Shown here piece by piece: positions 17,759 through 33,081 of a stretch of DNA of 33,689 nucleotides (positions within the stretch are counted from its first letter, which is position 1; every line of letters begins with the position of its first letter). Position numbers and translations under genes: made by a program. This DNA is from an uncultured Eubacteriales bacterium (GTDB lineage Bacteria > Bacillota > Clostridia > Oscillospirales > Oscillospiraceae): positions 1 through 33,689 of the forward strand of contig ONPN01000037.1 in the NCBI GenBank assembly GCA_900319695.1, given 5' to 3'. Under the pieces are notes generated by a model. It saw only the letters and a program-made list of their open reading frames with translations. It did no database searches and had not been told where the DNA came from.

Positions 17759-18001
17759 TTACTTGACGCGGATGACCCAGCCCTCGCGGATCAGGTCGAC
17801 GTTCTTGATGACGTCGCGGTTGAGAGACTGGATGTTCCAGACGCTGGTGCCGAATCTGACAGCGATCTCGGACAGGGTATCGCCGCGGACAACACGGTAG
17901 TAGGTCGCGCCGCCGTCAACCCAGGAGGGGCCGTTCGCGCCGCCGCCGGAAACGGTTTCTGCTTCCTGATCGTTCAGAACTTTCACTTCATCGTTAGCCA
18001 T
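17759..18001 (-). CDS. Small LysM protein with double-glycine leader
   Basis: An 80-residue protein (82 if the Met two codons upstream at 18007 is used). The second ATG is preferred because AAGGAG then sits 9 nt upstream. The C-terminal part is a single LysM domain (YYRVVRGDTLSEIAVRFGTS to the end), a peptidoglycan/chitin-binding fold. The N-terminus is not a Sec signal but reads VLNDQEAETVSGGGANG. Counted back from the Gly-Gly, Leu is at -12, Glu at -8 and Val at -4, which is the bacteriocin/ComC double-glycine leader pattern cut by C39-peptidase ABC exporters. The precursor at 25860 ends its leader in a matching pattern, and a C39 transporter is encoded at 28733, 10.7 kb away. I infer export and cleavage to a roughly 60-residue cell-wall-binding protein. 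Confidence 0.75.
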   Translation of the reverse strand: MANDEVKVLNDQEAETVSGGGANGPSWVDGGATYYRVVRGDTLSEIAVRFGTSVWNIQSLNRDVIKNVDLIREGWVIRVK

Positions 18002-18066
18002 GGTCATAATCTCCTTTTTTGTTTTATATTTTTATTTGGACTTTTTTCTTTTCTCGAGACAATTGC

Positions 18067-20508: not shown

Positions 20509-21825
20509 TTGAAAAAGCTGTTATCCTGCATCCTGGCCCTGCTGCTCCTGGCAGGCGTCATGCCGGTCGCGTCCGCCGATTATTACGACTATGAGCCGGA
20601 CGGCATCGAGTTTGACGCTTCCGAGGGCGGTCTTTGCCTCTACATCCCGGAGGATTGGGTCTTCGGCTCCCACGGCTTTGTGGACCTCGCCTTCAGCGAA
20701 GAGCTTGGCTACAACTCGGGCGTCTACGTCACCATGCTCGTCTATAACGCCATGTCGATGGACGATTACGATCGCTACGGCTATGACGAGGACTATTGCG
20801 CGCCCCTGATCACTTGGGTCTGCCTGAAGGACGGCTTCGATCCGAACGCCGCCATCAACGCGGGTCTCGATATCAACTTGAACGAGGCCTTTGAGATCTG
20901 CACGGTGGGGGACAACCTTGAGTATACCCACTATGTTGTGATCGGCGAGGAGAATCTGCCGAGGGGCATCAGCGGGGTTTACCTGGATGAGTATATCTCC
21001 TTCCTGAATCAGGCCGGTGACATCATCTACAGCTCGGTCTACATGCCTCCCGTGAACCCCTATGCGCAGACGGCCGGAAACACCGCCGACTTTACCAGCC
21101 GGGATCTCAACGGCAATGCCGTCGACAGCAAGGATCTCTTTGCCGCCAATGAGATCACCATGGTCAACCTCTGGGCGACCTGGTGCCCGCACTGCGTCAA
21201 GGAGCTGCCTGAGCTTGAGCAGATCAGCCGCCGCCTGCAGAAGCTCGGCTGCGGCGTGATCGGCATCCTCACGGACGACGACTATGACGAGGCGCGGGAC
21301 ATTATCCGCGACAGCGGCGTGACCTACCCTGTCGTCGTCGGCACCCCGGAGACCGAATCGATTTTCGAGTCCAATGGCCTGCCCATCACCTTCTTTGTCA
21401 ATCGCAACGGTGAAATTGTGGGCGTCCCGGTCGAGGGGGCACAGGTGGACAAGTATGAGGAGGCCGTGAAGGATCTCCTGGGCGAAGTCACCGCCAGGAG
21501 CAGAAGCCAGATCGCGGACTATTCCGACGCCCCCGTAAAGTTCAAGAGCGCGCGGCAGGCGAGCGCACAGGCGGATGTCTACCGTGTGATTTGCGTGGAT
21601 GAGAGCGGCGCGCCCGTCGCCGGTGCGAAGGTGCAGTTCTGCACGGATGACACCTGTATGCTGGGTGAGACGGATGAAGACGGCGCGGCTGAGTTCGACG
21701 TCAATCCCGGCCCCGGCAACACCGTCCATCTGCTCAAGCCGCCCGCCGGCTACGCCAAGGACAAGACCGAATACCAGGCCCCCGCAAACTTCGGCGATGT
21801 GACCATTATCCTGAAAGCCGCCTGA
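20509..21825 (+). CDS. Secreted thioredoxin-like protein with C-terminal beta domain
   Basis: A 438-residue exported protein. A Sec signal peptide (KKLLSCILALLLLAGVMPV, cut probably after ASA at residue 23) is followed by an unassigned Tyr/Asp-rich domain (24-185). A TlpA/ResA-type thioredoxin domain follows (about 190-335) with WCPHC (C226, C229) and the cis-proline stretch GLPITFFVNRNGEIVG. The last 90 residues (VYRVICVDESGAPVAGAKV, DEDGAAEFDV) look like a Cna-B/transthyretin-like beta domain. Such proteins reduce or relay thiols outside the membrane. The start is TTG with CGGAGGA upstream, chosen because it gives an intact signal peptide. It lies 44 bp after the STAS gene and is followed by a strong terminator. 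No lipobox cysteine is evident at the cleavage site. Confidence 0.82.
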   Translation: MKKLLSCILALLLLAGVMPVASADYYDYEPDGIEFDASEGGLCLYIPEDWVFGSHGFVDLAFSEELGYNSGVYVTMLVYNAMSMDDYDRYGYDEDYCAPLITWVCLKDGFDPNAAINAGLDINLNEAFEICTVGDNLEYTHYVVIGEENLPRGISGVYLDEYISFLNQAGDIIYSSVYMPPVNPYAQTAGNTADFTSRDLNGNAVDSKDLFAANEITMVNLWATWCPHCVKELPELEQISRRLQKLGCGVIGILTDDDYDEARDIIRDSGVTYPVVVGTPETESIFESNGLPITFFVNRNGEIVGVPVEGAQVDKYEEAVKDLLGEVTARSRSQIADYSDAPVKFKSARQASAQADVYRVICVDESGAPVAGAKVQFCTDDTCMLGETDEDGAAEFDVNPGPGNTVHLLKPPAGYAKDKTEYQAPANFGDVTIILKAA

Positions 21826-21907
21826 AACGGATAGAGGTAAAGGCCGCAGACGCAGCAGGGGAGACCTCCCTTGCTTACCCGGCAGAACACAGCAAAAACA
21901 AAAATAT

Positions 21908-21950
21908 GTGCGGCGATTTCGTACAATCTGCGAAATCGCCGCACGTTTTT
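21908..21950. terminator. Strong bidirectional terminator between thioredoxin gene and lanM
   Basis: A perfect 14-bp stem (21908-21921 with 21931-21944) with a 9-nt loop is followed by T5 on the plus strand. On the minus strand a T-rich stretch follows as well, so it can end both convergent transcripts. Confidence 0.88.
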
Positions 21951-21975
21951 CTCACTGTGTTTATACTGGTCTCCC

Positions 21976-22113
21976 ATAAAACGGCTTAAAGCCGTTTTAT
22001 AGTGCCAAAGGCACGTCGGAGACCTATGAGACGTGTTTTGTGCCCTAGGGCACAAAACTGGCAGCGCGCCTTGCGCGATGCCTTTTCGTTAAAACGAGCC
22101 GTTTTAACGAAAA
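21976..22113. repeat. Array of perfect palindromes/hairpins
   Basis: Five hairpins stand within 138 bp: 21976-22000 (10-bp stem), 22002-22014 (5-bp stem), 22036-22057 (a 22-bp perfect palindrome with no loop), 22065-22077 (5-bp stem) and 22083-22113 (13-bp stem). No coding frame crosses them convincingly. They lie just past the 3' end of lanM. They may be an extended 3' structure or a REP/BIME-like repetitive element. The rest of the 21826-22119 gap holds only the terminator. Confidence 0.7.
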
Positions 22114-22119
22114 ACAGTA

Positions 22120-24843
22120 TTACTCCTGCGCTTCCAGCGCGTCGGCGTAGACCAGCATCGCGTAGGCCACACCCGCGGTGCCGCGCCAGAAGGCGGGGTC
22201 GGGGACGTTGCGCAGCCGCAGCGGGAGAGAGCGATAGCCGCCGTCCCGCTCCGCGCGCTTTGCGGCTTGCGCGAGCCGCGCGCCCGCCGCGCGCAGAAGG
22301 GCCGCATCCCTGCGGCGCAGGGCCGCCTCGGTCAGCGCCAGGGCGAGACCCGCGTTGCCGCAGGCCAGATCGTCCGTCTCCAAAAACGGCAGCGAGAGCG
22401 TGCAGGCGAGCGCCCTGTCCGCGAGCTCTGCCGCGGCGGGCACCGTCTCTTCGCACAGGATCGCGGCCAGGGCGATGCCGGGCGCGCCGGCCTCCAGCGC
22501 CTCGCCCCGGATGACGGGCAGGGAGGACTTCTCATAATTCGGCCAGCCGCCCAGCAGCGTGCGATACTGCGCGCTCTCATAGCGCAAAGCCTTGTCCGCC
22601 GCCTCCAGACAGTCCGTATTGCCGGTGAAGCGGAAGCTCCGCGTAAGCGCGAGGGCCGTGCCGGCCATGCCTTTGCCGAGACCGGAGACCGGGCCGGGCT
22701 CGTCCACCCGCGCGATCACGAGAGGCGTCAGCCGCTCGATGAGCCGCAGGAGCGGCTTCGGCGCGTCCGCATACCCGATCCGCTCCGCCGCCGACACGCA
22801 GCCGTACAGGAGCCCGCCGATCCCGGCGTACAGCCCGGCGTTCTCCTCCTCAAAGCTCCGGCTTGAAAGCTTTAAGCTCTCGATGACGTCCTCGATCCCC
22901 TCCCCGTCCATGCACGGGGAGAGCAGCAGCCCGCCGACGCCCTTGCGCAGGCCCGGATGCAGAACCGAGCGGAACTTATCGCTCATCTGGCGATAGGTTC
23001 TCCGCGAGCGCAAAAGGTCTTCCCTCGTATCCGCGAGAAGGCGCAGCGCCTGCGCTTCGCAGCCGAGGGAGGCGGTTTTCAGGGCGCGGTCGAACAAAAC
23101 GCTCATGCCCGGCAGACCCCGTTCAAAAGTCGGGTGATGGCTCGGGACAAGATGCTGATCGGCACTGAGCAGAATGCGGCTCCCGTCGGTCAGCTTCAAG
23201 GCCATCTTCTCCATGTCGGCGAGGATGCCGCGCGCCTCGGCGCGGGCCTCGTCGGCAGAGAGCGGGAGCGGCTCCGTTTCGGGCGGCGCGCCCGGCGGCG
23301 CGAAGGAATAATCAGGCCCCTGCTCAAGCCGCCGCCGGAGGTAATCCAGCTCAAAACGCTTCTCCTCCGGCCCGGAGTGCTCCAGGGTCAGGAGGCATTG
23401 CTTTGTCGCCGCGATGCGGAAGAAATCGTCTATGAGGATCTCGCCCCGCGGGTCGCCGTACAGCCCGCCGTGACCGGCGCGGAAGGAAAAATAGGGGATG
23501 TCGCCCTCCTCGAGACAGGCGCGCTCCCACTGCACTACCGGCAGATACTCCGGCGCTTTTTCAAAGTGTTTGTCCAGGTCGGCCAGGATCTTCTCTCGCC
23601 CCTCGACGGAGGCGCAGCCCGCGGGGGCGTGCAGCTCGCGCAGCGTCAGGGCGTAATAGGCCGAGGCGCGCAGGACGAAGCGGGCGCTCATGCCCTCCGC
23701 CTCGCGCACCATGTCCGCAAGCTCCCCGCGCCGAGCAAGCAGGCGGTCATACATGCGCGCAAAGCCCTCTGTAAAGCTGTCCTCATAGCCGTAAACGGGG
23801 ATCTGTTTTCCATTCAGGACCGGGAGACAGGCGGCGGTCTCCGTCCCGCCGCGCAAAAGGGGGCTGATCTGCGCCTTGCCCTGGAGCATCATGGGCAGCA
23901 CCAGCGTGCTCTGGGCGGAAAACATCAGATCCCGCCACACCGGGTTCAGCTCGTCGACCGTGTCGACTTCGCAGCCCCGAAAGGGATCGGAGGCGGGGGT
24001 AAACAGCGTCTCCATGTCAATGGCGGTCGGGTAGACGCCGCAGGCCAGAATGTTCTCAAAATGCATGTCGGAACTGCCGAGAAAGCGGAACAGCGCCGTC
24101 AGCGCGCCGAAGTGCCGGTAATAGGCCGCGACGTCCTCAGGGCTCTGCACCGGCGCGGTCTTCATGCACTCGATAAAGCCGAAGCCCTCGCCGCACACGG
24201 CATGCGGCGCAAGGGTCTCGCCGGGGCAGAAGCGCTCCACGATCCGGCGGTAGAGAAGGTCGATCCGGCTGTCGCGGGGCTTGTAATAAAACACGCCGCC
24301 CTCGCACGTCACACGCATGGCGCACTGGCCGTGCAGATGCATGTCGGCCCCGGACGCGCCCAGGGAGAGGAGCCTGCCCATCGGGCGGCCTTCCAGCAGC
24401 TCCCGCTCGATCCGGTCCGCGTATTCGCTCACGCGGCGCAGGAAGGTCGTCAGAAAGCGGCGGAAGTTTGCGCAGACATGTTCCGCGTCCCGCCTGAGAA
24501 GCGGGTAGCGTTCGAAGGGACTGCCGCCGGGCGCCGCCAGGCTTTGAAGCGTCCGGGCAAGGGCCTGGGCGCGGTCGCTGTCCGACGCAAAATGCGGCGA
24601 AAGCCGGACGGCGGGGTTGATGAGGCAGAGCGCTTCCTCCAGCGCCGCCTGTACCGTCGGCTCCGCGAGCTCCTTCAGACGGCGGAAAAGAAGCTCCTGC
24701 CCGAGTGCAGCCGCTTCCCGCAGAGGAAGCTCCGGCAGACGGGCGAGCTCGTTCACCTCGTCCTCCGCCATGGGGCGTAGAAAGTCGTAAAGATCCTCCG
24801 GCTGTCCGGCGGCCGCCTGCCTACTTTCCATGTGATTGTTCAC
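22120..24843 (-). CDS. LanM-type lanthipeptide synthetase with degenerate cyclase domain
   Basis: A 907-residue class II lanthipeptide synthetase. The dehydratase part (about 1-590) keeps its key residues: ADMHLHG (D167, H169), YYKPR (K188), DMHFEN (D259, H261, N264) and IDMET (D276), with spacing matching the CylM kinase-like site. It should phosphorylate and eliminate Ser/Thr to Dha/Dhb. The LanC-like part (about 660-907) is recognisable by GIGGLLYG, GMAGTALAL and AGAPGIALA, but its active site is changed. The expected HG is KG (K724), the WCHG cysteine is E784 (LEAGAPG), and CHG is ACG (A827, C828). Zinc binding and thioether formation therefore look lost. GTG start overlapping the flavoprotein gene stop (GTGA). 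Confidence 0.9.
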   Translation of the reverse strand: MNNHMESRQAAAGQPEDLYDFLRPMAEDEVNELARLPELPLREAAALGQELLFRRLKELAEPTVQAALEEALCLINPAVRLSPHFASDSDRAQALARTLQSLAAPGGSPFERYPLLRRDAEHVCANFRRFLTTFLRRVSEYADRIERELLEGRPMGRLLSLGASGADMHLHGQCAMRVTCEGGVFYYKPRDSRIDLLYRRIVERFCPGETLAPHAVCGEGFGFIECMKTAPVQSPEDVAAYYRHFGALTALFRFLGSSDMHFENILACGVYPTAIDMETLFTPASDPFRGCEVDTVDELNPVWRDLMFSAQSTLVLPMMLQGKAQISPLLRGGTETAACLPVLNGKQIPVYGYEDSFTEGFARMYDRLLARRGELADMVREAEGMSARFVLRASAYYALTLRELHAPAGCASVEGREKILADLDKHFEKAPEYLPVVQWERACLEEGDIPYFSFRAGHGGLYGDPRGEILIDDFFRIAATKQCLLTLEHSGPEEKRFELDYLRRRLEQGPDYSFAPPGAPPETEPLPLSADEARAEARGILADMEKMALKLTDGSRILLSADQHLVPSHHPTFERGLPGMSVLFDRALKTASLGCEAQALRLLADTREDLLRSRRTYRQMSDKFRSVLHPGLRKGVGGLLLSPCMDGEGIEDVIESLKLSSRSFEEENAGLYAGIGGLLYGCVSAAERIGYADAPKPLLRLIERLTPLVIARVDEPGPVSGLGKGMAGTALALTRSFRFTGNTDCLEAADKALRYESAQYRTLLGGWPNYEKSSLPVIRGEALEAGAPGIALAAILCEETVPAAAELADRALACTLSLPFLETDDLACGNAGLALALTEAALRRRDAALLRAAGARLAQAAKRAERDGGYRSLPLRLRNVPDPAFWRGTAGVAYAMLVYADALEAQE

Positions 24844-25592
24844 GCTTCTGCCCGTCCTTTCTGCCGCAGAGCCTCGCGCAGGGACGCGCAGCCCATCAAA
24901 CCGCGCCGACGGAAGGTGTTTACCTCGTCGGGGCAGCTCTGCCCTGTGAGCGTCCGGAAGGTTTCCAGAGCGCGGTAGCTCTGCCGGAGGCTCTGAAACT
25001 GTCCCTCCGCAAGCTCCGAAAGATATTGTTCGGGGTGCCCGACCGCGTCCAGAAGAGAATCCGCGGCGCTCTCCATGGCCGCGCGCGCTTTCTCGCCGCC
25101 GATCACCAGACCGTCGCCCTGCCTTTGCAGCGGGAGACGCGCCGCGACGGCGCAGCCCATGACCTCAAGGCACTCGGACAGATAAGCGGCCGCGCGCTCG
25201 GAGCCGGAGACGGCGGTCACGCTGAGAACCAGGCAGGGTTTTCCGAGCAGCTCAAACACATGGCACCAGCGCGCGCAGCGATCCAGAAAATTCTTGCACC
25301 AGCCGCTGACCGAGCACATATAGACCGGTGTCGCGGCGATCAGCGCGTCGCAGTCCTTCACCTTCCGCCGCAGCTCGGCCATGCCGTCCTCCCCGTCCTG
25401 CGGGCAGAAGCCCTCAAGAAAACAGCTTTTGCAGCCGACGCAGGCCTGCACGGGCAGCTCGCTCATGGTGAGGACTTCAAACGCCGCGTCCGGGCAGCGC
25501 CGACCGATCATGCCGCAGAGCTCGTTCGTCATCCGCAGCGTCGCCGACTTTTCTTCACGGCGTGCCGCAAAAACAAGCGCCAGTATTTTCAT
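24840..25592 (-). CDS. Iron-sulfur flavoprotein / NAD(P)H-dependent FMN reductase family
   Basis: A 250-residue flavodoxin-fold protein. It starts with MKILALVFAARREEKSATLR (FMN phosphate loop) and has TPVYMCSVSGWCKNFLDR, the family flavin-contact stretch. Between them, C51, C54, C57 and C63 form C-x2-C-x2-C-x5-C, like the compact cluster motif of iron-sulfur flavoproteins. The C-terminal 80 residues are extra to the minimal domain and not recognised. It is first in the minus-strand unit, overlaps lanM by 4 bp, and has a GGAGGG site. Flavin-dependent reductases in lanthipeptide clusters can reduce Dha/Dhb to D-Ala/D-Abu. I infer that role here from position; a maturation or redox-supply role is also possible. 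Confidence 0.8.
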   Translation of the reverse strand: MKILALVFAARREEKSATLRMTNELCGMIGRRCPDAAFEVLTMSELPVQACVGCKSCFLEGFCPQDGEDGMAELRRKVKDCDALIAATPVYMCSVSGWCKNFLDRCARWCHVFELLGKPCLVLSVTAVSGSERAAAYLSECLEVMGCAVAARLPLQRQGDGLVIGGEKARAAMESAADSLLDAVGHPEQYLSELAEGQFQSLRQSYRALETFRTLTGQSCPDEVNTFRRRGLMGCASLREALRQKGRAEA

Positions 25593-25740: not shown

Positions 25741-25769
25741 TTGACACACCTGCGCCAAAATGCTATAAT
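25741..25769 (+). promoter_or_regulatory. Consensus promoter of the precursor peptide operon
   Basis: TTGACA (25741-25746), exactly 17 nt, TATAAT (25764-25769): both boxes match consensus. The 28 bases upstream are almost all A/T, resembling an UP element. This is the strongest promoter I see in the window and suits an abundant precursor peptide. A leader of about 85 nt follows. Confidence 0.92.
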
Positions 25770-25859: not shown

Positions 25860-26144
25860 ATGACCATTAAGGAATTCTACGAAAAAGCCGCAACTGATAC
25901 CGAACTGCAGGCAAAGGTCGCCGAGGCTGCCAAGAGCGGCAAAGCGCTGGAAGTCATCCTGAAGGAGCTGGGCATCGACGCCACCGTGGAAGAGCTCAAG
26001 GCCTTCGTCGGCGCAAATACTGCCGAGGGCAAGCTCGACAAGAGCCAGCTCGACGAAGTCGCCGGCGGCACCACGCCCACCGTTGCCACGGTCGTTCCTG
26101 CCTGCGGCGTTACCATTTCCGTTTCTTCCGCCGCTACCTGCTGA
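25860..26144 (+). CDS. Nif11-like-leader RiPP precursor peptide
   Basis: A 94-residue peptide. Residues 1-64 form a helical Nif11-like leader (IKEFYEKAATDTELQAKV, LEVILKELGIDATVEELKAF). It ends in LDEVAGG, with Leu at -12 and -7 and Val at -4 from the Gly-Gly at 69-70, the C39 cleavage pattern. The 24-residue core (71-94) has Thr at 71, 72, 74, 77, 85 and 93, Ser at 87, 89 and 90, Cys at 82 and 94, Pro at 73 and 80, and otherwise Ala, Val, Ile and Gly with no charged residue. It is preceded by AAAGGAG 9 nt before ATG and by a consensus promoter, and followed by modification and export genes. It should be the substrate of LanM and the radical SAM enzyme. The product is unknown. Confidence 0.93.
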   Translation: MTIKEFYEKAATDTELQAKVAEAAKSGKALEVILKELGIDATVEELKAFVGANTAEGKLDKSQLDEVAGGTTPTVATVVPACGVTISVSSAATC

Positions 26145-26183
26145 TTGTTCGCCTATTGGGCAGGAGCAGCCTGTCCGCATCTG

Positions 26184-26212
26184 CCGGCAGCCGGGTTTCG
26201 GCTGCCGGTTTT
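26184..26212 (+). terminator. Hairpin after the precursor gene (partial terminator)
   Basis: A perfect 10-bp GC-rich stem (26184-26193 with 26199-26208), a 5-nt loop and a T4 tail lie between the precursor and the radical SAM gene. No second promoter is seen, so partial read-through would give more precursor than enzyme mRNA. Confidence 0.75.
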
Positions 26213-26239: not shown

Positions 26240-28171
26240 ATGATTTCCGAACTGCACAAGCAAGCCAACAAAGAAGAGCGGCTTGACGTCGTCCTGCTTT
26301 CGCCGCCGTACGACTTTCCGCCGCGGCCGTCGATCGCGCTGTCCCTTTTCAAACAGTGCCTGAACGAAGCGGGGATGCGCTCGCAGGTCTTCTATCCGAT
26401 GTTTCGGCTGGCCCACCTCCTCGGCCTCGAGGCCGCCGGAAAGATTGACGCCTTTCCCTATACCTCGGGCCTGCAGGAGTATCTGTTTGCCCACATGACC
26501 GATGTGGAAAACACCTGCAGCGATGAGCGCTTCGCCCGTCTTCTCTGCCGGGATTATCCCGTGTATCCGTTAGATGAGATTCTCGCGCTGATTCAATACG
26601 CCAGGGAGAAGGCCCGCCAGTGCGTGGAAGAACTGGCGGAGGAGATCGCGCGCATCCGCCCCGGCGTTCTGGCGGTCAGCTCCATTTTTTCGCAGATCAA
26701 CGGGGCGCTCGCCGTCATCAGGCGCGTCAAGGAGCTTGCCCCGGACATTGTGACGATCCTCGGCGGCACCAACGTGTCCGGTGAGGCCGGAGCGGCGGTG
26801 CTGCGCCATTATCCCAGTGTGGACTATGTCTTCTTCGGCGAGGGGGACGAGGTGTTCGCCCAGGTCTGCCGCATCGCCATGGGCGCGGAGGCCGGGCCCA
26901 TGCCCTACGGCGTGGTCCGGCATGGGGAGCAGATCCCCGACCCGATCCCGCACCGCATGACGCAGGACATGAACAAGGTCTGCTATCCCGATTATTCCGA
27001 CTTTATCGACGCTTGGAAACGTGAGCAGGCGGGAGAATTCGGCCCGCCCATGTTCGGGCAGGAATTTGTGGAGGATAACAAGCAGCTGCTCTACCTCTCG
27101 GGCGCAAACTATGCGCTGTACCTTGAGGGCTCGCGCGGATGCTGGTGGGGTCAGAAGCACCCGTGCAGCTTCTGCGGGCTCAACGGGCGCAAAAACGTCT
27201 ACCGCTTCAAAAGCGCGCAGCGCCTGTGCGATGAGATCCTGGAGCTGAGCCGCAAATACGAAAACAACCTGATCCAGCTTACGGATAATATTCTGAGCTT
27301 TGACGCGATGGAGAACCTGCTGCCCATGCTGGCCGAGAGCGGCCAGGCGCTGAATCTGGTGGGCGAGGTCAAGACAAATCTGAAAGAGCGGGATATTGTG
27401 CGGCTTGTGAAGGCGGGGTTCGTCATCGTACAGCCGGGCATAGAAAGCCTGAACGACCATCTGCTGCAATTGATGAACAAGGGAAACAACGCCGCTTCTC
27501 ATGTGGCCTTTCTGAAATACTGCCGCAGGCACGGTCTGGGCCTGTCATGGAACCTGCTGATGGCCTTCCCCGGCGAGAAGGAGGAGGACTACGAGGAACT
27601 GATCGACCTGATCCCGAAGCTTGTGCATTTCCATGCTCCGACAGGGGTGTTTCCCATTATGTTCCAGCGCTATTCGCGCTATCTGGAAGACCCGGCGCAG
27701 TACGGGCTGGAGCTCAAACCGAAAGAGATGTATCGCTGCATCTACGGCGACAGCGACGACCGGGTCGAAAATATGTGCATGTACTATGAGCTGACGGGCG
27801 GCGCGTTCCGGGAGACGCTGGCGCGGATGCAGCCCTGGTATGACCGCCTTTATGCGGCTGTCTTTGAATGGAGACGGATCGCGGCCTCCGGCGAAAAGCA
27901 CAGCCTCGTGATGGCGGAGACCGCAGGCGGGCTTCTGCTGCTGGATTCTCGCCCCTGCATGGTGCAGCCCTTCGGCCTCCTCACCGGGGTGGACAGGGCG
28001 GTCTTTCTGGCCTGTGACGAGGTGAAGACGGAAAAGCAGCTGCTCGCCGCCCTGCGTGATGATGCGTCTGAGGAGGAAATCCTCGCCTCGGCGGAAAAGC
28101 TCACTTCGCTGAACTATCTGGCCAGGCTGGGCGGGCGCTACGTGTCGCTGGCCCTCCCCGCCTCAACTTAA
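26240..28171 (+). CDS. B12-binding radical SAM RiPP maturase (C-methyltransferase type)
   Basis: A 643-residue class B-like radical SAM protein. Residues 1-230 form a cobalamin-binding-like domain (DVVLLSPPYDFPPRPSIALS, TILGGTNVSGEAG, VDYVFFGEGDEVF). The radical SAM core carries the cluster motif GCWWGQKHPCSFCGLNG, where C301, C309 and C312 give C-x7-C-x2-C, not the standard C-x3-C-x2-C. That motif marks the 'RiPP maturation radical SAM protein 1' group found in NHLM/Nif11 precursor clusters, whose studied relatives are C-methyltransferases. The C-terminal 80 residues look like a small winged-helix-type domain. It probably methylates an unactivated carbon of the core; site and number are unknown. 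The start has GGGAGGAGAG upstream; the next gene follows after 18 bp. Confidence 0.88.
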   Translation: MISELHKQANKEERLDVVLLSPPYDFPPRPSIALSLFKQCLNEAGMRSQVFYPMFRLAHLLGLEAAGKIDAFPYTSGLQEYLFAHMTDVENTCSDERFARLLCRDYPVYPLDEILALIQYAREKARQCVEELAEEIARIRPGVLAVSSIFSQINGALAVIRRVKELAPDIVTILGGTNVSGEAGAAVLRHYPSVDYVFFGEGDEVFAQVCRIAMGAEAGPMPYGVVRHGEQIPDPIPHRMTQDMNKVCYPDYSDFIDAWKREQAGEFGPPMFGQEFVEDNKQLLYLSGANYALYLEGSRGCWWGQKHPCSFCGLNGRKNVYRFKSAQRLCDEILELSRKYENNLIQLTDNILSFDAMENLLPMLAESGQALNLVGEVKTNLKERDIVRLVKAGFVIVQPGIESLNDHLLQLMNKGNNAASHVAFLKYCRRHGLGLSWNLLMAFPGEKEEDYEELIDLIPKLVHFHAPTGVFPIMFQRYSRYLEDPAQYGLELKPKEMYRCIYGDSDDRVENMCMYYELTGGAFRETLARMQPWYDRLYAAVFEWRRIAASGEKHSLVMAETAGGLLLLDSRPCMVQPFGLLTGVDRAVFLACDEVKTEKQLLAALRDDASEEEILASAEKLTSLNYLARLGGRYVSLALPAST

Positions 28172-28189: not shown

Positions 28190-28714
28190 ATGCCGAAAAC
28201 CGAAAACCTCTTTCGCAAGGAGAGCATGGATCAGCTGAGCCAGCAGACCAGAACCGGCCCCTATGTCAGCGCCACGCGCCTGATGCCGTGGATGACGCTG
28301 GTGGCGGTGCTGGTTTTGCTCCTGTCCTTTCTGATCTGGGCTTTCGCCGGAAAGCTGCCGGTCACGGTGTTATGCTACGGCTTTGCCCCGGAAGACGGGA
28401 ACGAGTGTATTCTCCTGCTGTCGCCCCAGCTGATGCAGACCTACAAGGCAGATCAGGGGGACGACGTGCGCGTTACCCAGCCCAACGGCGGCATTCTGCG
28501 GGGCAAGGTGGTCGACGTGTCGGACAAGCCGCATTCACTGGGGGAAATGTCGACTATCATTGAGAGCGACTGGGTCTTTAATGAGCTTGCCGCGGCGGAG
28601 TACAACTACTATATAACGGTTGAGGTGAATGCGCCGCTGCAGAAGGAAGATCTGGTGGAGGCGGTCATCACCGTCGACCATGTGCGGCCCATCGTTCTGA
28701 TGATCGATCCCTGA
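28190..28714 (+). CDS. Short HlyD-like NHLM secretion protein
   Basis: A 174-residue protein with an N-terminal segment (NLFRKESMDQLSQQTRTGPY) resembling NHLM-system HlyD proteins, one membrane helix (about 35-53, MTLVAVLVLLLSFLIWAFA), and a beta-rich lipoyl/barrel-like part (VTQPNGGILRGKVVDVS, YYITVEVNAPLQKEDLVEAVI). Typical family members are about 400 aa and have a long coiled-coil hairpin; none is present here. That fits a Gram-positive-type cell with no outer membrane to bridge. It should be the accessory subunit of the two ABC proteins downstream. AAAGGAG lies before ATG. The next gene begins 18 bp after its stop (ATG 28733). Confidence 0.78.
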   Translation: MPKTENLFRKESMDQLSQQTRTGPYVSATRLMPWMTLVAVLVLLLSFLIWAFAGKLPVTVLCYGFAPEDGNECILLLSPQLMQTYKADQGDDVRVTQPNGGILRGKVVDVSDKPHSLGEMSTIIESDWVFNELAAAEYNYYITVEVNAPLQKEDLVEAVITVDHVRPIVLMIDP

Positions 28715-28732
28715 TGTGTGAGGACGCGGAAG

Positions 28733-30883
28733 ATGAAGTACACACATGTAAAGGTACCGATGATCATGCAGATGGAGTACGTCGAATGCGGGGCGGCTTC
28801 CCTTGCGATGATCCTGGCCTATTACGGAAAATATGTGCCGCTTGAAAAGGTGCGCCGGGACTGCGGCGTCTCCAGGGACGGTTCACGCGCCTCCAATCTG
28901 GTAACGGCGGCGGAGAACTACGGCCTGATTGCCGACGGCTATCGCTGGTCGGTGGAGAGTGTGATGCAGAAGGCGCACTTTCCCTGCATCATTCACTGGA
29001 ACATGGCGCATTTCGTGGTGCTGCGGGGCTTCGGGAAAAACAAGGCGTATCTGAACGATCCGGGACTCGGTGAAGTCACGGTCACTATGGAGGAATTCAA
29101 CCGCAGCTTTACCGGCATCGTCCTGGAATTTACCCCCGGGGAGAACTTCGTCCGGGACGGGAAGGCGCCCACTGTCGTCTCTTTTCTGAGAGACAGGGCG
29201 CGTCAATACCGCTCCGGCCTGCGCTTTCTGGTGCTGGACGCGCTGGCGGTATCGCTGGTGGGACTGATGGTTCCGGTGTTTCAAAGGGTCTTTACCGACA
29301 TGATCCTGGAAAGCCTGCAGATCTGGGAAAAGCAATTCTTTCTGCTGCTTTTGTTTCTGGGCGTGCTTGAGCTTGCGGCGGATCTTTTGCGCGAGACCTA
29401 TATTTACCGGATTCAGGGCGATATGGCGATCCGGACAAACACGGAATTTTTTGCCCATCTGCTCAAGCTTCCGATCGAGTTTTACCAGCAGCGCTCAGCC
29501 GGGGATCTGATCTCGCGGCTGACGATGAATTCCACCATCGCCGAGCTTTTGGTGCGCAAAATCACACCGACGGCGATTCAGCTTTTGATGGTGGGCATCT
29601 ATTTTGCGGCGCTGTACTCCCTGAGTCCCGCGGCGGCCTTTCTGGGGGGCTTTGCGCTCTGTGCCAACGTCTTCGCGGCCTGGTTCCTGGCAAAGTTTAC
29701 GCTGCAGTCGCAGCAGCAGCGCATGAACAGCAAGATGCGTATGGACGCCACGATGATCGCAGGCATTGACATGATCGAGACCATCAAGTCCTCGGGCGTG
29801 GGCAACGGTTATTTTGCCCGCTGGGCCAGCCAGCAGGCGGAGGTCAACGAAGGCAAAACCAAAGAGAACGACATCTCGGCGTATCTGAGCGGGCTGTCGG
29901 TTTTCATGCTGGATCTGACGAACGCCATAGTGCTGACGGTAGCGGCCTGGTCCATCGTCCACGGCAGAACCACCGTGGGCCTGATCCTGGTGCTGCAGAC
30001 CCTGATCCAGAAGCTGACGGCCCCGGCGCAGGAACTGGCGCAGGTCAGCCGAAATATCCGCGAGCTTGCCACTTCCATCCAGAAGGTGGAGGATGTGAGA
30101 TGCTATGAAGAGGATGCGGCCTTCCCGATTGAGACCATGGCGCAGGATACCGCGCTTCCCCCCATGCGGGGCGGCGTAGAGTTTCGCCATGTGACCTTCG
30201 GCTATTCGCGCCTGTCGCCGCCGCTGCTGGACGATTTCAGCTTCACCATCGAGCCGGGACAGCGCGTGGCCTTTGTGGGCGCGTCTGGCTCCGGCAAGTC
30301 CACCGTCGCCAAGCTCATGACCGGCACGGTCCTTCCCTGGTCGGGGGAAGTGCTGTATGACGGCGTCAATCGCCTTGACCTGCCCAAATCGATGTTTACC
30401 GACAGCGTGTCGATCGTCAGTCAGGACAGTACCCTTTTTGAGGCGACCGTGCACAACAACATCAGCATGTGGGACGCCAATATCCCCGGCCCGGCCATTA
30501 CCGGCGCAGCCCGGGAGGCCTGTATTGAAGAGGATATTCTGATGCATCCGGGCGGCTACGACTATGTGGTCCGCTCCGGCGGCAAAAACTTCTCCGGCGG
30601 TCAGCGCCAGCGCATCACGATTGCGCGCGCCCTGGTCAGAAATCCGAAGGTGCTGATCCTGGATGAGGCGACCTCGGCCCTGGACGCCATGACCGAACAT
30701 GAGATCATGGAGAACATCAAGGCGCGCAGCATAACCACGGTCATCGTGGCGCACCGGCTGTCCACCGTGCGGGACTGCGACAAGATCATTGTGCTTGCCA
30801 ACGGAAAGATCGCCGAACAGGGCACGCACGATGAACTGATGAAGCTTCAGGGCCGCTATTACACCCTGGTCTCATCGCAGTGA
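28733..30883 (+). CDS. NHLM-type ABC transporter with C39 peptidase domain
   Basis: A 716-residue peptidase-containing ABC exporter. The N-terminal C39 domain (1-140) has its full set of catalytic residues: Q13 and C19 in MQMEYVECG, H93 in NMAHFVVL and D109 in LNDPG. It should cut after Gly-Gly leaders. A six-helix membrane domain (about 165-440) follows. Then comes an ATPase with Walker A GASGSGKST (about 516) and FSGGQRQRITIARAL/ILILDEATSALD-type signature and Walker B. ATG 28733 is preferred; a GTG at 28718 in the same frame is possible. Its expected substrate is the precursor at 25860; the LysM protein at 17759 has a compatible leader. The stop lies immediately before the second ABC gene. 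Confidence 0.93.
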   Translation: MKYTHVKVPMIMQMEYVECGAASLAMILAYYGKYVPLEKVRRDCGVSRDGSRASNLVTAAENYGLIADGYRWSVESVMQKAHFPCIIHWNMAHFVVLRGFGKNKAYLNDPGLGEVTVTMEEFNRSFTGIVLEFTPGENFVRDGKAPTVVSFLRDRARQYRSGLRFLVLDALAVSLVGLMVPVFQRVFTDMILESLQIWEKQFFLLLLFLGVLELAADLLRETYIYRIQGDMAIRTNTEFFAHLLKLPIEFYQQRSAGDLISRLTMNSTIAELLVRKITPTAIQLLMVGIYFAALYSLSPAAAFLGGFALCANVFAAWFLAKFTLQSQQQRMNSKMRMDATMIAGIDMIETIKSSGVGNGYFARWASQQAEVNEGKTKENDISAYLSGLSVFMLDLTNAIVLTVAAWSIVHGRTTVGLILVLQTLIQKLTAPAQELAQVSRNIRELATSIQKVEDVRCYEEDAAFPIETMAQDTALPPMRGGVEFRHVTFGYSRLSPPLLDDFSFTIEPGQRVAFVGASGSGKSTVAKLMTGTVLPWSGEVLYDGVNRLDLPKSMFTDSVSIVSQDSTLFEATVHNNISMWDANIPGPAITGAAREACIEEDILMHPGGYDYVVRSGGKNFSGGQRQRITIARALVRNPKVLILDEATSALDAMTEHEIMENIKARSITTVIVAHRLSTVRDCDKIIVLANGKIAEQGTHDELMKLQGRYYTLVSSQ

Positions 30884-30897
30884 AGGGAGAGATGAGC

Positions 30898-33081
30898 ATG
30901 AGTGACAGCTGGAAGGAGAAAATCCTGCGCCGTCAGGAGGCCGACGCCGAACGGCTTGAAAACGCTGAGAACAGTCTTCTCGGCGTCACCGCCCTGGGCT
31001 TGTCCGCGGGCGGTGAAAAGAGCAGCGACAGATCCCTGGATCGCGCCTTCGCACTGAGGGAGATATGCTCATTTTTCGGTATTGCCACACCTGAGTTTCA
31101 CCCAGACCGCCTCGAAAACGAATCCTATGTAGAAGATCTGCTGCGAAAAAACGGCATTATGTCCCGTGTCTGCCTGCTCTCCCCCGGGTGGGAGCAAAAC
31201 GCTTTCGGCCCCTACCTGTGCAGGCTTACAAACGGTGTTACCGCGGCGCTGCTGCCCGGAAGCTACGGGCGCTATGCCTGCATTGATCGATCCAGCGGGG
31301 AGAAAATTGTTTTTGACAAAAAGAACAGCGCTCTGGTAGAGCGCGAAGCCGTGCTCTACTATCAGGCCGCGCCCCAGAGCAAGCTGAGCCTGAAGAAACT
31401 GCTGGCGTTTATGATGAGCTGCGTGGCAGGCGGCGAACGCTTTCTGATCCTGTTCTGCGCGCTGGCCGTGATCCTGCTTGGCATCTTCTATCCGGTTGCC
31501 AGCAAGTGGATGATGACGCTTGTGATTCCCTCCGGCAATGGTGAGCTGATCTATTCACTGCTGATCTTTCTGCTGGGCTGCGCAATTGCAAAGTATCTCT
31601 TTTCCATCGTACAGGCCAGGGTGGTTGCCAGGGTCAGTCAAAAGATGTCCCTTTTCCTGCAGAGCTCGCTTTTCGCCCGTGTTCTGGACCTGCCGGTGGA
31701 GTTCTTTCGCAAGAACAAGACCGCCGATGTTTACGGCAGTCTGAACCTGGTGGAGCCCCTGTGCAGCGTGCTTTGCTCCCTCTTTTTCTCCACAGGCCTG
31801 AGCGCGCTTCTGTCTCTGACCTATGTGTTTGAGCTGAAAACCGCTGCCCCGATGATGATCGGTCCGGCCCTTCTGGTGCTGGGCATCCAGCTGGTGCTGC
31901 AGGTGTTCGGCGTGCTGGGGCAGATTCGCAACGCCATGGACCGTCTGAGCGGACAGATGGAGACGAACGAACGCGCTCTGGATACTCTGTGGGGCATTGA
32001 AGAGGTGAAAAATGCCGGCGCCGAATCGCGGGCGCTGGCGCGCTTCATGGAGGCCTACCGTGTCCAGGCGGATGCCGAGTTCCGCCCGCCTCTTTTTGTG
32101 AAGCTCCAAAACGCGCTCGGGCCTTCCACGACCATTTTCGGCATGGTGCTTCTCTTCTGGATGGCTATTCGTGTCGGTCTGACTGATGATCTGTTCATCT
32201 ACTTCTTTGCGGCCTACAGCATGAGCAGCACGGCAATCCAGCAACTGAGCGGCCTCGGCTCTCAAATCGCGGCGATCCGCCCGATTTTGCTGCTGATGCG
32301 TCCGATTCTCGAGGAGGTCCCCGAAATTTCCTCCTCCGGGCGCGACCCCGGAAAGCTCAGCGGCGCCATCACGCTCAATGAGGTGTCGTTCCGCTATGAC
32401 AGCTCCGCGCCTCTGGTTCTGGATCATCTGAGCTTACAGGTAAAGCCAGGGGAATACCTGGCCATCGTCGGGGGCTCCGGCTCCGGCAAGTCGACCCTCG
32501 TGCGCCTGCTGCTGGGGTTTGAGCATCCCCAGACCGGCGCGGTCTATTATGACGGTGAAAACCTGCTCCATCTGGACAACACGGCCGTCCGGCGCCAGAT
32601 CGGGGCCGTGCTGCAGCAGGGCAGAATTTTCTCCGGCAACGTCTTTACGAACATCGCCATCACGCGGCCGGATCTGACGGAGGAGGAGGCCTGGGCAGCG
32701 GCGGAGGCTGCGGGTCTTGCCGACGATATCCGGGCCATGCCGCTCGGCATGCAGACGATACTCTCGGACGACGCGGCAGCGATCTCCGGCGGGCAGAAGC
32801 AGCGCCTGCTGATCGCCCGCGTGATCGCGCAGAAACCGTCCATCCTGATTCTGGATGAAGCGACCTCCGCATTGGACAATGTGACGCAGAAGAAGGTCAC
32901 CGACGCGCTGGACAATCTGCACTGTACCCGCATTGTCATTGCCCACCGCCTGAGCACGATCCGTGACTGCGACCGTATACTGGTTTTGAGCAAGGGAAAA
33001 ATCACGGAAGAAGGAAGCTATGACGAGCTGCTTGCCAAGGATGGGGAATTTGCCAAACTGGTGAAGCGCCAGCTCGTATAG
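30898..33081 (+). CDS. NHLM-type ABC transporter, second ATP-binding/permease protein
   Basis: A 727-residue ABC half-transporter. The N-terminal region of about 170 residues is soluble with no C39 catalytic residues. A membrane domain spans about 175-450. The ATPase domain has Walker A GGSGSGKST (about 525), ISGGQKQRLLIARVIAQ and ILILDEATSALDN. It ends FAKLVKRQLV, the usual type of C-terminus for the second ABC protein of NHLM bacteriocin systems. It probably pairs with the C39-ABC protein as a heterodimer and assists leader handling. ATG 30898 is chosen for its AAGGGAGA site 7 nt upstream; ATG 30892 and a GTG at 30880 are in-frame alternatives. The last gene of the RiPP operon; no terminator is evident after it. 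Confidence 0.9.
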   Translation: MSDSWKEKILRRQEADAERLENAENSLLGVTALGLSAGGEKSSDRSLDRAFALREICSFFGIATPEFHPDRLENESYVEDLLRKNGIMSRVCLLSPGWEQNAFGPYLCRLTNGVTAALLPGSYGRYACIDRSSGEKIVFDKKNSALVEREAVLYYQAAPQSKLSLKKLLAFMMSCVAGGERFLILFCALAVILLGIFYPVASKWMMTLVIPSGNGELIYSLLIFLLGCAIAKYLFSIVQARVVARVSQKMSLFLQSSLFARVLDLPVEFFRKNKTADVYGSLNLVEPLCSVLCSLFFSTGLSALLSLTYVFELKTAAPMMIGPALLVLGIQLVLQVFGVLGQIRNAMDRLSGQMETNERALDTLWGIEEVKNAGAESRALARFMEAYRVQADAEFRPPLFVKLQNALGPSTTIFGMVLLFWMAIRVGLTDDLFIYFFAAYSMSSTAIQQLSGLGSQIAAIRPILLLMRPILEEVPEISSSGRDPGKLSGAITLNEVSFRYDSSAPLVLDHLSLQVKPGEYLAIVGGSGSGKSTLVRLLLGFEHPQTGAVYYDGENLLHLDNTAVRRQIGAVLQQGRIFSGNVFTNIAITRPDLTEEEAWAAAEAAGLADDIRAMPLGMQTILSDDAAAISGGQKQRLLIARVIAQKPSILILDEATSALDNVTQKKVTDALDNLHCTRIVIAHRLSTIRDCDRILVLSKGKITEEGSYDELLAKDGEFAKLVKRQLV

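Follow-up and report, generated by a model that had tools for sequence, protein, structure and literature searches.

A LanM-type synthetase without the usual cyclase zinc ligands and its putative flavoprotein partner in a Nif11-type peptide cluster

Zinc-less LanM-type enzymes that do not form rings are already in print (CcaM, PoyF, and EmbM). CcaM, the LanMbC enzyme of the dehydrazole/carnazolamide pathway, is described as having a zinc-less cyclase domain that is required for dehydration (PMC10676384). LanJB enzymes of the FMN-reductase family are described as reducing dehydro residues to D-amino acids and as common in class II clusters (PMC7268733, PMC11519912, PMC3951391). In CylM, T512 is given as one of four residues required for phosphate elimination (PMC4550811). 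Here we analyze a lanM gene (22120–24843, minus strand) and its surroundings in a 33,689-nucleotide stretch of DNA from an uncultured Eubacteriales bacterium (contig ONPN01000037.1 of assembly GCA_900319695.1), referred to as the window. The window is one entire contig of a 2.8-Mb genome that is 79% complete and has Ruminococcaceae metagenome-assembled genomes (MAGs) as its closest named relatives.

The reading we favor is dehydration without rings, followed by reduction. The LanM would phosphorylate and dehydrate Thr and Ser of a Nif11-type core without forming thioether rings, and its LanC half would be a catalytically dead module, probably for folding or substrate positioning. A flavoprotein would then reduce some or all of the dehydroalanine (Dha) and dehydrobutyrine (Dhb) to D-Ala and D-aminobutyrate (D-Abu) in the manner of LanJB. 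Methyl groups would be added by a B12 radical S-adenosylmethionine (SAM) enzyme and the leader removed at a double glycine (GG) by a C39 exporter, giving a mostly hydrophobic peptide that is ring-free or ring-poor. We consider ring-less dehydration alone to be quite likely, and ring-less dehydration together with reduction to be somewhat better than an even bet.

Residues, relatives, and selection of the LanM

The gene is a minus-strand open reading frame (ORF) with a GTG start that encodes 907 amino acids (aa). It has no internal stop, in agreement with the initial annotation, which had described the frame as unbroken. That annotation had also listed seven kinase and elimination residues as conserved, and all seven are present and map onto the CylM alignment, where D252, H254, K274, D347, H349, N352, and D364 correspond to D167, H169, K188, D259, H261, N264, and D276. 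These residues lie in the dehydratase (DUF4135) part, residues 113–530 (23254–24507, minus strand), for which the best Pfam stretch covers residues 113–322 (E = 8.9e-62). The NCBIfam LanM model (TIGR03897) scores 298.3 bits, slightly below its cut-off of 304. Two further elimination residues of CylM were traced: R506 is kept as R388, and T512 is changed to S394. The T512 column holds Thr in 71 and Ser in 10 of 86 aligned rows (eight duplicate rows counted), and Ser is found at 394 in all six readable LanMs of the radical-SAM sub-branch that includes the window (L032 is split there).

The LanC-like part spans residues 560–907 (22123–23166, minus strand) and matches Pfam LANC_like over residues 657–901 (E = 3.6e-11), with the usual zinc ligands gone. 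On the minus strand, Lys724 (22672–22674) stands where ligand-intact enzymes have His, Glu784 (22492–22494) where they have Cys, and Ala827-Cys828 (22360–22365) where they have Cys-Cys or Cys-His. The His at position 724 is, we assume, the equivalent of NisC H212, an active-site residue and no zinc ligand. Loss of this site had been claimed from K724, E784, and A827-C828, and it was borne out when the protein was compared with LicM2 and the ligand-intact sequences of a larger set. Cyclase columns are present in 72 sequences of this set. The ligands are intact in 54 of these, including two free-standing LanCs, but not in the other 18, made up of 15 full-length and three truncated LanMs; eight rows without cyclase columns, some because the locus ends, were excluded from this count.

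Orthologs of the window LanM were found at 90%, 83%, 78%, and 68% identity, with the cassette kept and flanking genes different. At the LanC positions the four assemblies read REAC (L029), KEAC (L030), KEAC (L031), and REAL (L032), so the loss goes beyond chance or sequencing error. The earlier statement that a single ligand cysteine remains stands in part. C828 is there in the window and occupies a normal ligand place, given that the closest relatives with intact ligands belong to the CCG (ProcM-like) type; it is not a conserved ligand, as L032 has Leu. All seven LanMs in the radical-SAM sub-branch keep K/R724 and E784, a hint of selected replacement rather than random loss. Window residues 540–907 contain eleven His and Cys, none of them conserved group-wide as an alternative zinc ligand. 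In a cyclase-domain tree built without LanKC or CcaM sequences, the window domain groups with CCG-type LanM domains.

In our set, the site is lost at the window, at its four orthologous loci, and in ten other full-length LanMs. All seven kinase and elimination residues are kept in 14 of these 15 erased enzymes (the halves of L032 read separately), the exception being one at L041 (17515). A quick tree, in which long branches were flagged, was constructed from dehydratase columns only, using the 53 rows left once duplicates, near-copies, and incomplete rows had been removed. All 19 rows of erased or truncated LanMs lie on one side of a branch (Shimodaira-Hasegawa-like approximate likelihood ratio test, SH-aLRT, 95) and adjoin ligand-intact, Nif11-linked CCG-type LanMs. 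They would form a clade if the root, which was not inferred, lies outside them. Ratios of nonsynonymous to synonymous substitution rates (dN/dS) for six ortholog pairs are 0.19–0.36 in the cyclase half and 0.16–0.24 in the dehydratase half. The cyclase half is thus under purifying selection, maintained and not decaying. This selection, together with the domain requirement described for CcaM (PMC10676384), is compatible with the earlier idea that the cyclase fold serves in substrate binding. Rather than being an isolated exception, the window enzyme typifies an unusual group.

Genome surveys, with the center genome counted, gave matches in 3 of 394 genomes of the order, 12 of 391 of the class, and 10 of 79 of the genus of G540. 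Ligands of the order- and class-survey loci were not read, so members of the group could hide there. From the genus survey, regions of G1219, G1223, and G540 were taken into the set. Loci L009–L011 from the ortholog search were left out. G1219 (L145) has a ligand-intact LanM, and G1223 (L146) has a 514-aa LanM without cyclase columns, no reductase match, and a core with five Cys.

Other LanMs in the set vary in form. The lanM of the 68% ortholog (L032:9926–12644) occupies two overlapping frames, through either an assembly error or a real break. One of the two LanMs of the lah cluster (L041:17530–20334) has Tyr and Arg at the D252 and H254 positions and Pro at T512, and may be a kinase only. 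A second LanM with a short C-terminal domain and the seven kinase residues comes after the first LanM and reductase at three loci (L036:15599–17581, L037:12305–14683, and L040:15007–16989); at L036 and L040, a radical-SAM-like gene (motif only) lies between the reductase/first LanM and the second. Two LanMs of Olsenella sp. SIG37 (L042 and L046) are without cyclase columns and have Thr at the H261 position, and each locus has an FMN_red gene and Nif11-type precursors with 3–4 Cys and few Ser/Thr. Four MAG contigs with LanMs (L063, L067, L068, and L071) are titled Bordetella parapertussis; the one placed in the tree, L067, groups with Zwartia (Alcaligenaceae), so these titles are probably wrong names.

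Precursors, reductase, and free-standing cyclases

The window precursor (25860–26144, plus strand) is 94 aa long and exceeds the cut-off of the leader_Nif11 model (36.6 versus 32.3 bits). Its 70-aa leader ends in AGG, directly before the core TTPTVATVVPACGVTISVSSAATC (26070–26141). A search with this precursor gave one match per genome in seven sub-branch genomes. At L029, where the LanM is 90% identical to that of the window and the genome is 84% complete, the sole detected precursor is Cys-free, and its Cys-free end is a clean in-frame stop. The remaining three ortholog cores have one Cys each, as do the L033 and L034 cores. Cores without Cys make up 6/6 at L035, 11/11 at L039, and 5/7 at L041. 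Over all erased full-length LanM loci, 23 of 34 cores are Cys-free, compared with 0/5 at the two truncated-LanM loci (L042 and L046) and 0/6 at four ligand-intact Nif11 loci. L038, which lies at a contig edge, and L040 yielded no cores, and a GG site could not be parsed in two precursor-like fragments of L087. Because a lanthionine needs Cys, ring closure cannot be the common task of these LanMs.

The flavoprotein gene (24840–25592, minus strand) encodes a 250-aa PF03358 FMN_red protein and shares a four-base overlap with lanM, the GTG start of which overlaps the reductase stop. Apart from the window, 15 related loci have erased or truncated LanMs, and at 13 of them the cluster includes an FMN_red gene of this family (13/16 if the 514-aa LanM at L146 is included). 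At the remaining loci of the 61 scanned there was no match at E ≤ 1 to a profile built from members of the same family, which could miss a distant FMN_red; L027 was searched by blastp against window proteins only. Over tree rows the counts are 13/19 versus 0/34 (one-sided Fisher 3e-8), a value that ignores relatedness and is no real probability. All 14 aligned reductases share the motif C-x2-C-x2-C-F...C-P (C-x2-C-x2-C-x5-C-P in the window) and a D-R...H...L-GK stretch. The spacing C-x2-C-x2-C-x4-7-C is an iron-sulfur flavoprotein signature. Among solved structures, SP1951 of S. pneumoniae (1SQS, E = 6e-16) is closest in sequence. It has a similar second stretch (E-R...H...L-GK) and no Cys motif; its gene presumably lies in a lantibiotic cluster. 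By analogy with LanJB, the task of the reductase is probably conversion of Dha/Dhb to D-Ala/D-Abu, which would explain why reductase and working cyclase do not co-occur in this set.

Two erased-LanM loci, L033 (uncultured Lachnospiraceae) and L034 (Butyrivibrio sp. VCD2006), are without the reductase. Both have radical SAM and exporter types as in the window, plus a separate LanC of ~430 aa in which H, C, and CC are intact. These LanCs group with ligand-intact CCG-type LanM domains (support 89). In 11 other genomes, including that of the window, no separate LanC was found using PF05147: five have the erased LanM domain only and six have no match at all. The window genome belongs to the first kind, PF05147 matching only the 22120–24843 gene in this 79% complete assembly. 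A dehydratase-only LanM, as originally proposed for this gene, is well supported by the comparison, through the group-wide loss of the zinc site, the Cys-free L029 precursor, and the ligand-intact cyclase encoded as a separate gene in L033 and L034. More tentatively, and at a little under even chances, the zinc cyclase may have been lost once and a four-Cys reductase acquired as partner. This would have given rise to a ring-free class of ribosomally synthesized and post-translationally modified peptides (RiPPs) in which Ser/Thr become D-Ala/D-Abu in linear peptides, with two lineages keeping or regaining rings via a free-standing LanC and having no reductase.

Gene order and neighboring sequences

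The reductase and lanM genes on the minus strand face the precursor, radical SAM, HlyD-like, and two exporter genes on the plus strand. A sigma-70-type promoter-like site (25741–25769, plus strand; 12/12, TG before the -10) lies upstream of the precursor and is a consensus match only. A terminator-like hairpin (26183–26209, plus strand) separates the precursor from the radical SAM gene and could thereby set precursor levels above those of the enzyme. The B12-binding radical SAM protein (26240–28171, plus strand) belongs to the TIGR03975 RiPP maturation C-methyltransferase family (511.5 bits, cut-off 281.85). It is followed on the same strand by a short NHLM HlyD-like membrane protein (28190–28714), a weak match (22.3 bits) with an equivalent place in three orthologs. 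The exporters are of the NHLM_micro_ABC1 type with a C39 peptidase (28718–30883, plus strand; 819.8 bits, cut-off 853.3) and the NHLM_micro_ABC2 type (30880–33081, plus strand; 623.7 bits, cut-off 709.4). The C39 peptidase of the first exporter would cleave past GG.

On the other side, a thioredoxin-like gene (20509–21825) is convergent with lanM and has a terminator-like hairpin 3' of it (21906–21946, plus strand). A 153-bp dispersed repeat (21963–22115) lies just 3' of lanM and forms a very strong hairpin (DNA fold z-score -12.7). At least about 40 long copies are present in the window genome and about 40 in G068 (40/86 and 40/76 candidates scored), along with partial copies with the left or right part alone. 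Single matches occur in G084 and G045, none were found in five other relatives searched, and there was no Rfam match in the window. The repeat is REP/MITE-like (repetitive extragenic palindrome/miniature inverted-repeat transposable element). A small protein (17759–18007, minus strand) has a LysM domain preceded by a bacteriocin-type GG leader, with a 66% identical homolog at L020:14175–14417. Small GG-motif ORFs also occur close to the cassette in two relatives (L018:16438–16653 and L021:14800–14934).

Alternative explanations and known systems

Several observations weigh against dehydration without rings followed by reduction. Relatedness leaves few independent events behind the counts, the window genome is only 79% complete, and the L034 genome has two more LANC matches outside its cluster. 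No reductase of the four-Cys type is known to act on dehydro residues, and the solved relative SP1951 lacks the motif. A dehydratase-only LanM could leave Dha/Dhb in place or pass them to other enzymes, with the flavoprotein employed in another step such as electron supply to the radical SAM enzyme. FMN_red proteins often merely supply reduced flavin, and the window gene sits with a B12 radical SAM gene. However, this radical SAM type occurs at L033 and L034 without an FMN_red match, whereas L036, L037, and L040 have FMN_red and no match to that radical SAM type, with other radical-SAM-like genes nearby. The reductase therefore tracks the missing cyclase and not this radical SAM, and we consider another role for the flavoprotein unlikely. 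Decay of the gene or an artefact would fit the loss of a known active site and the split lanM of L032, but is contradicted by the uninterrupted lanM frames of four assemblies, by dN/dS values that stay well under 1 for cyclase and dehydratase alike, and by retention of the cassette; we give it hardly any weight.

Cysteines bear on whether ring closure by the LanC half persists, for example onto a C-terminal Cys, with a re-sited metal or none. With two Cys, the window core has more than any other core of its sub-branch. A Cys at the C terminus is retained by four of the five window-type cores as well as by those of L033 and L034, so that some ring formation may persist or Cys may serve another purpose. 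There is a single Cys in each of the two L036 cores and in the L037 core, and there are three or four in cores at the truncated-LanM Olsenella loci (L042 and L046). Five residues (H564, H570, H629, C644, and C682) are conserved in the cyclase halves of all five window-type LanMs, which might allow a re-sited metal in the window sub-branch, and class III LanKC enzymes are described as cyclizing zinc-free (PMC10604976). ThurKC, however, has S726, F770, and D771 at the ligand positions where the window has E784, A827, and C828 (Leu in L032); the 770/771 Phe and Asp were thus not found in the window, placement being by motif and not by ThurKC alignment. Changing F770 or D771 to Ala is described as giving dehydration without cyclization. 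The window protein scores 47 bits with the NCBIfam LanKC model versus 298 with LanM, and at L029, where the site is the same, the precursor is Cys-free. Ring closure of this kind appears improbable. Slightly less probable still is a kinase-only enzyme with a product that stays phosphorylated, like that of the phospeptin enzyme EmbM, which is described as lacking a cyclase domain and as having a Cys-free precursor of the Nif11 type (PMC9505594). T512, needed for elimination in CylM, is replaced by Ser394 in the window, and the L041 enzyme (17515) is without D252, H254, and T512 equivalents; by analogy with EmbM, a phosphopeptide product is possible. Against this, D167, H169, and R388 are kept, the Ser394 of the sub-branch retains the hydroxyl, and a reductase partner is sensible only after elimination.

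If the LanM dehydrates without closing rings and the flavoprotein reduces the products, LanM evolution would contain a clean fork in which the ring-closing half is dead but conserved and dehydro residues go to a reductase. A lanthipeptide-like cluster would then yield ring-free D-amino-acid peptides, and alternating cores (V-T-I-S-V-S) would give a backbone of alternating L and D residues with no radical-SAM epimerase involved. The reductase would be a candidate anaerobe-type enzyme for D-Ala/D-Abu installation. These loci form a natural set (erased LanM with reductase or with separate LanC; cores with 0–2 Cys) that makes it directly testable what the LanC fold contributes to dehydration. They also serve as a warning for genome mining that a LanM match need not mean a lanthipeptide.

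Among described systems, CcaM, as reported in PMC10676384, likewise joins DUF4135 to a LanC-like domain that lacks zinc ligands, and it dehydrates without making lanthionine. It differs in being leader-independent and in modifying Ser only before an azole (PMC10676384), a restriction that makes it YcaO-dependent. Its domain is termed class III in the same source; the window domain falls with CCG-type LanMs in the tree that had no LanKC or CcaM sequences. No YcaO was found in the window genome, in the four ortholog genomes (incomplete assemblies), or in those of L033, L034, L037, and L040; YcaO matches are present in the genomes of L035, L038, L039, and L041. PoyF of polytheonamide and EmbM are alike in using LanM chemistry without rings, and B12 radical-SAM C-methyltransferases also take part in polytheonamide biosynthesis (PMC9505594). 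According to the same account, PoyF, like EmbM, has no cyclase domain, whereas the window LanM keeps a siteless one under selection. EmbM is also described there as missing elimination residues, in contrast to D167, H169, and R388 of the window LanM, which has S394 for T512. The window reductase resembles LanJB of the BsjJB type as an FMN_red member in a LanM cluster; described LanJBs are in lanthionine-ring clusters, and the four-Cys motif of the reductases in our set, absent from SP1951, may be a further difference. CA_C0082 of Clostridium acetobutylicum is described as LanM-like without the zinc-binding motif, and differs in that dehydratase residues are also gone and homologs of 670–728 aa are linked to agr signaling (PMC10301443).

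The lah cluster of Lachnospiraceae bacterium C6A11 is itself in our set as L041, identified by a methyltransferase matching LahSB (6UAK, E = 9.8e-214) and an organism title that agrees. Its named parts are LahSB, LahT, and LahA1-9, and its LanMs are, we take it, LahM1 and LahM2. The 2020 paper of Huo et al. reportedly names a dehydratase, a methyltransferase, and Lachnospiraceae in its title, and its abstract is said to call LahM1/M2 unusual class II synthetases. Both lah LanMs fall in the erased-ligand group, and the cluster likewise has Nif11 precursors and an FMN_red gene. It differs in that its LanMs are 23–24% identical to that of the window, it has YcaO genes and the methyltransferase, it gave no TIGR03975-type radical SAM match, and one of its two LanMs is without elimination residues. 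No paper on a ring-free LanM/FMN_red class was among the matches listed in searches of open-access literature. As far as its gene content indicates, the window is a YcaO-free variant of these known systems that has a radical-SAM methyltransferase and a reductase.

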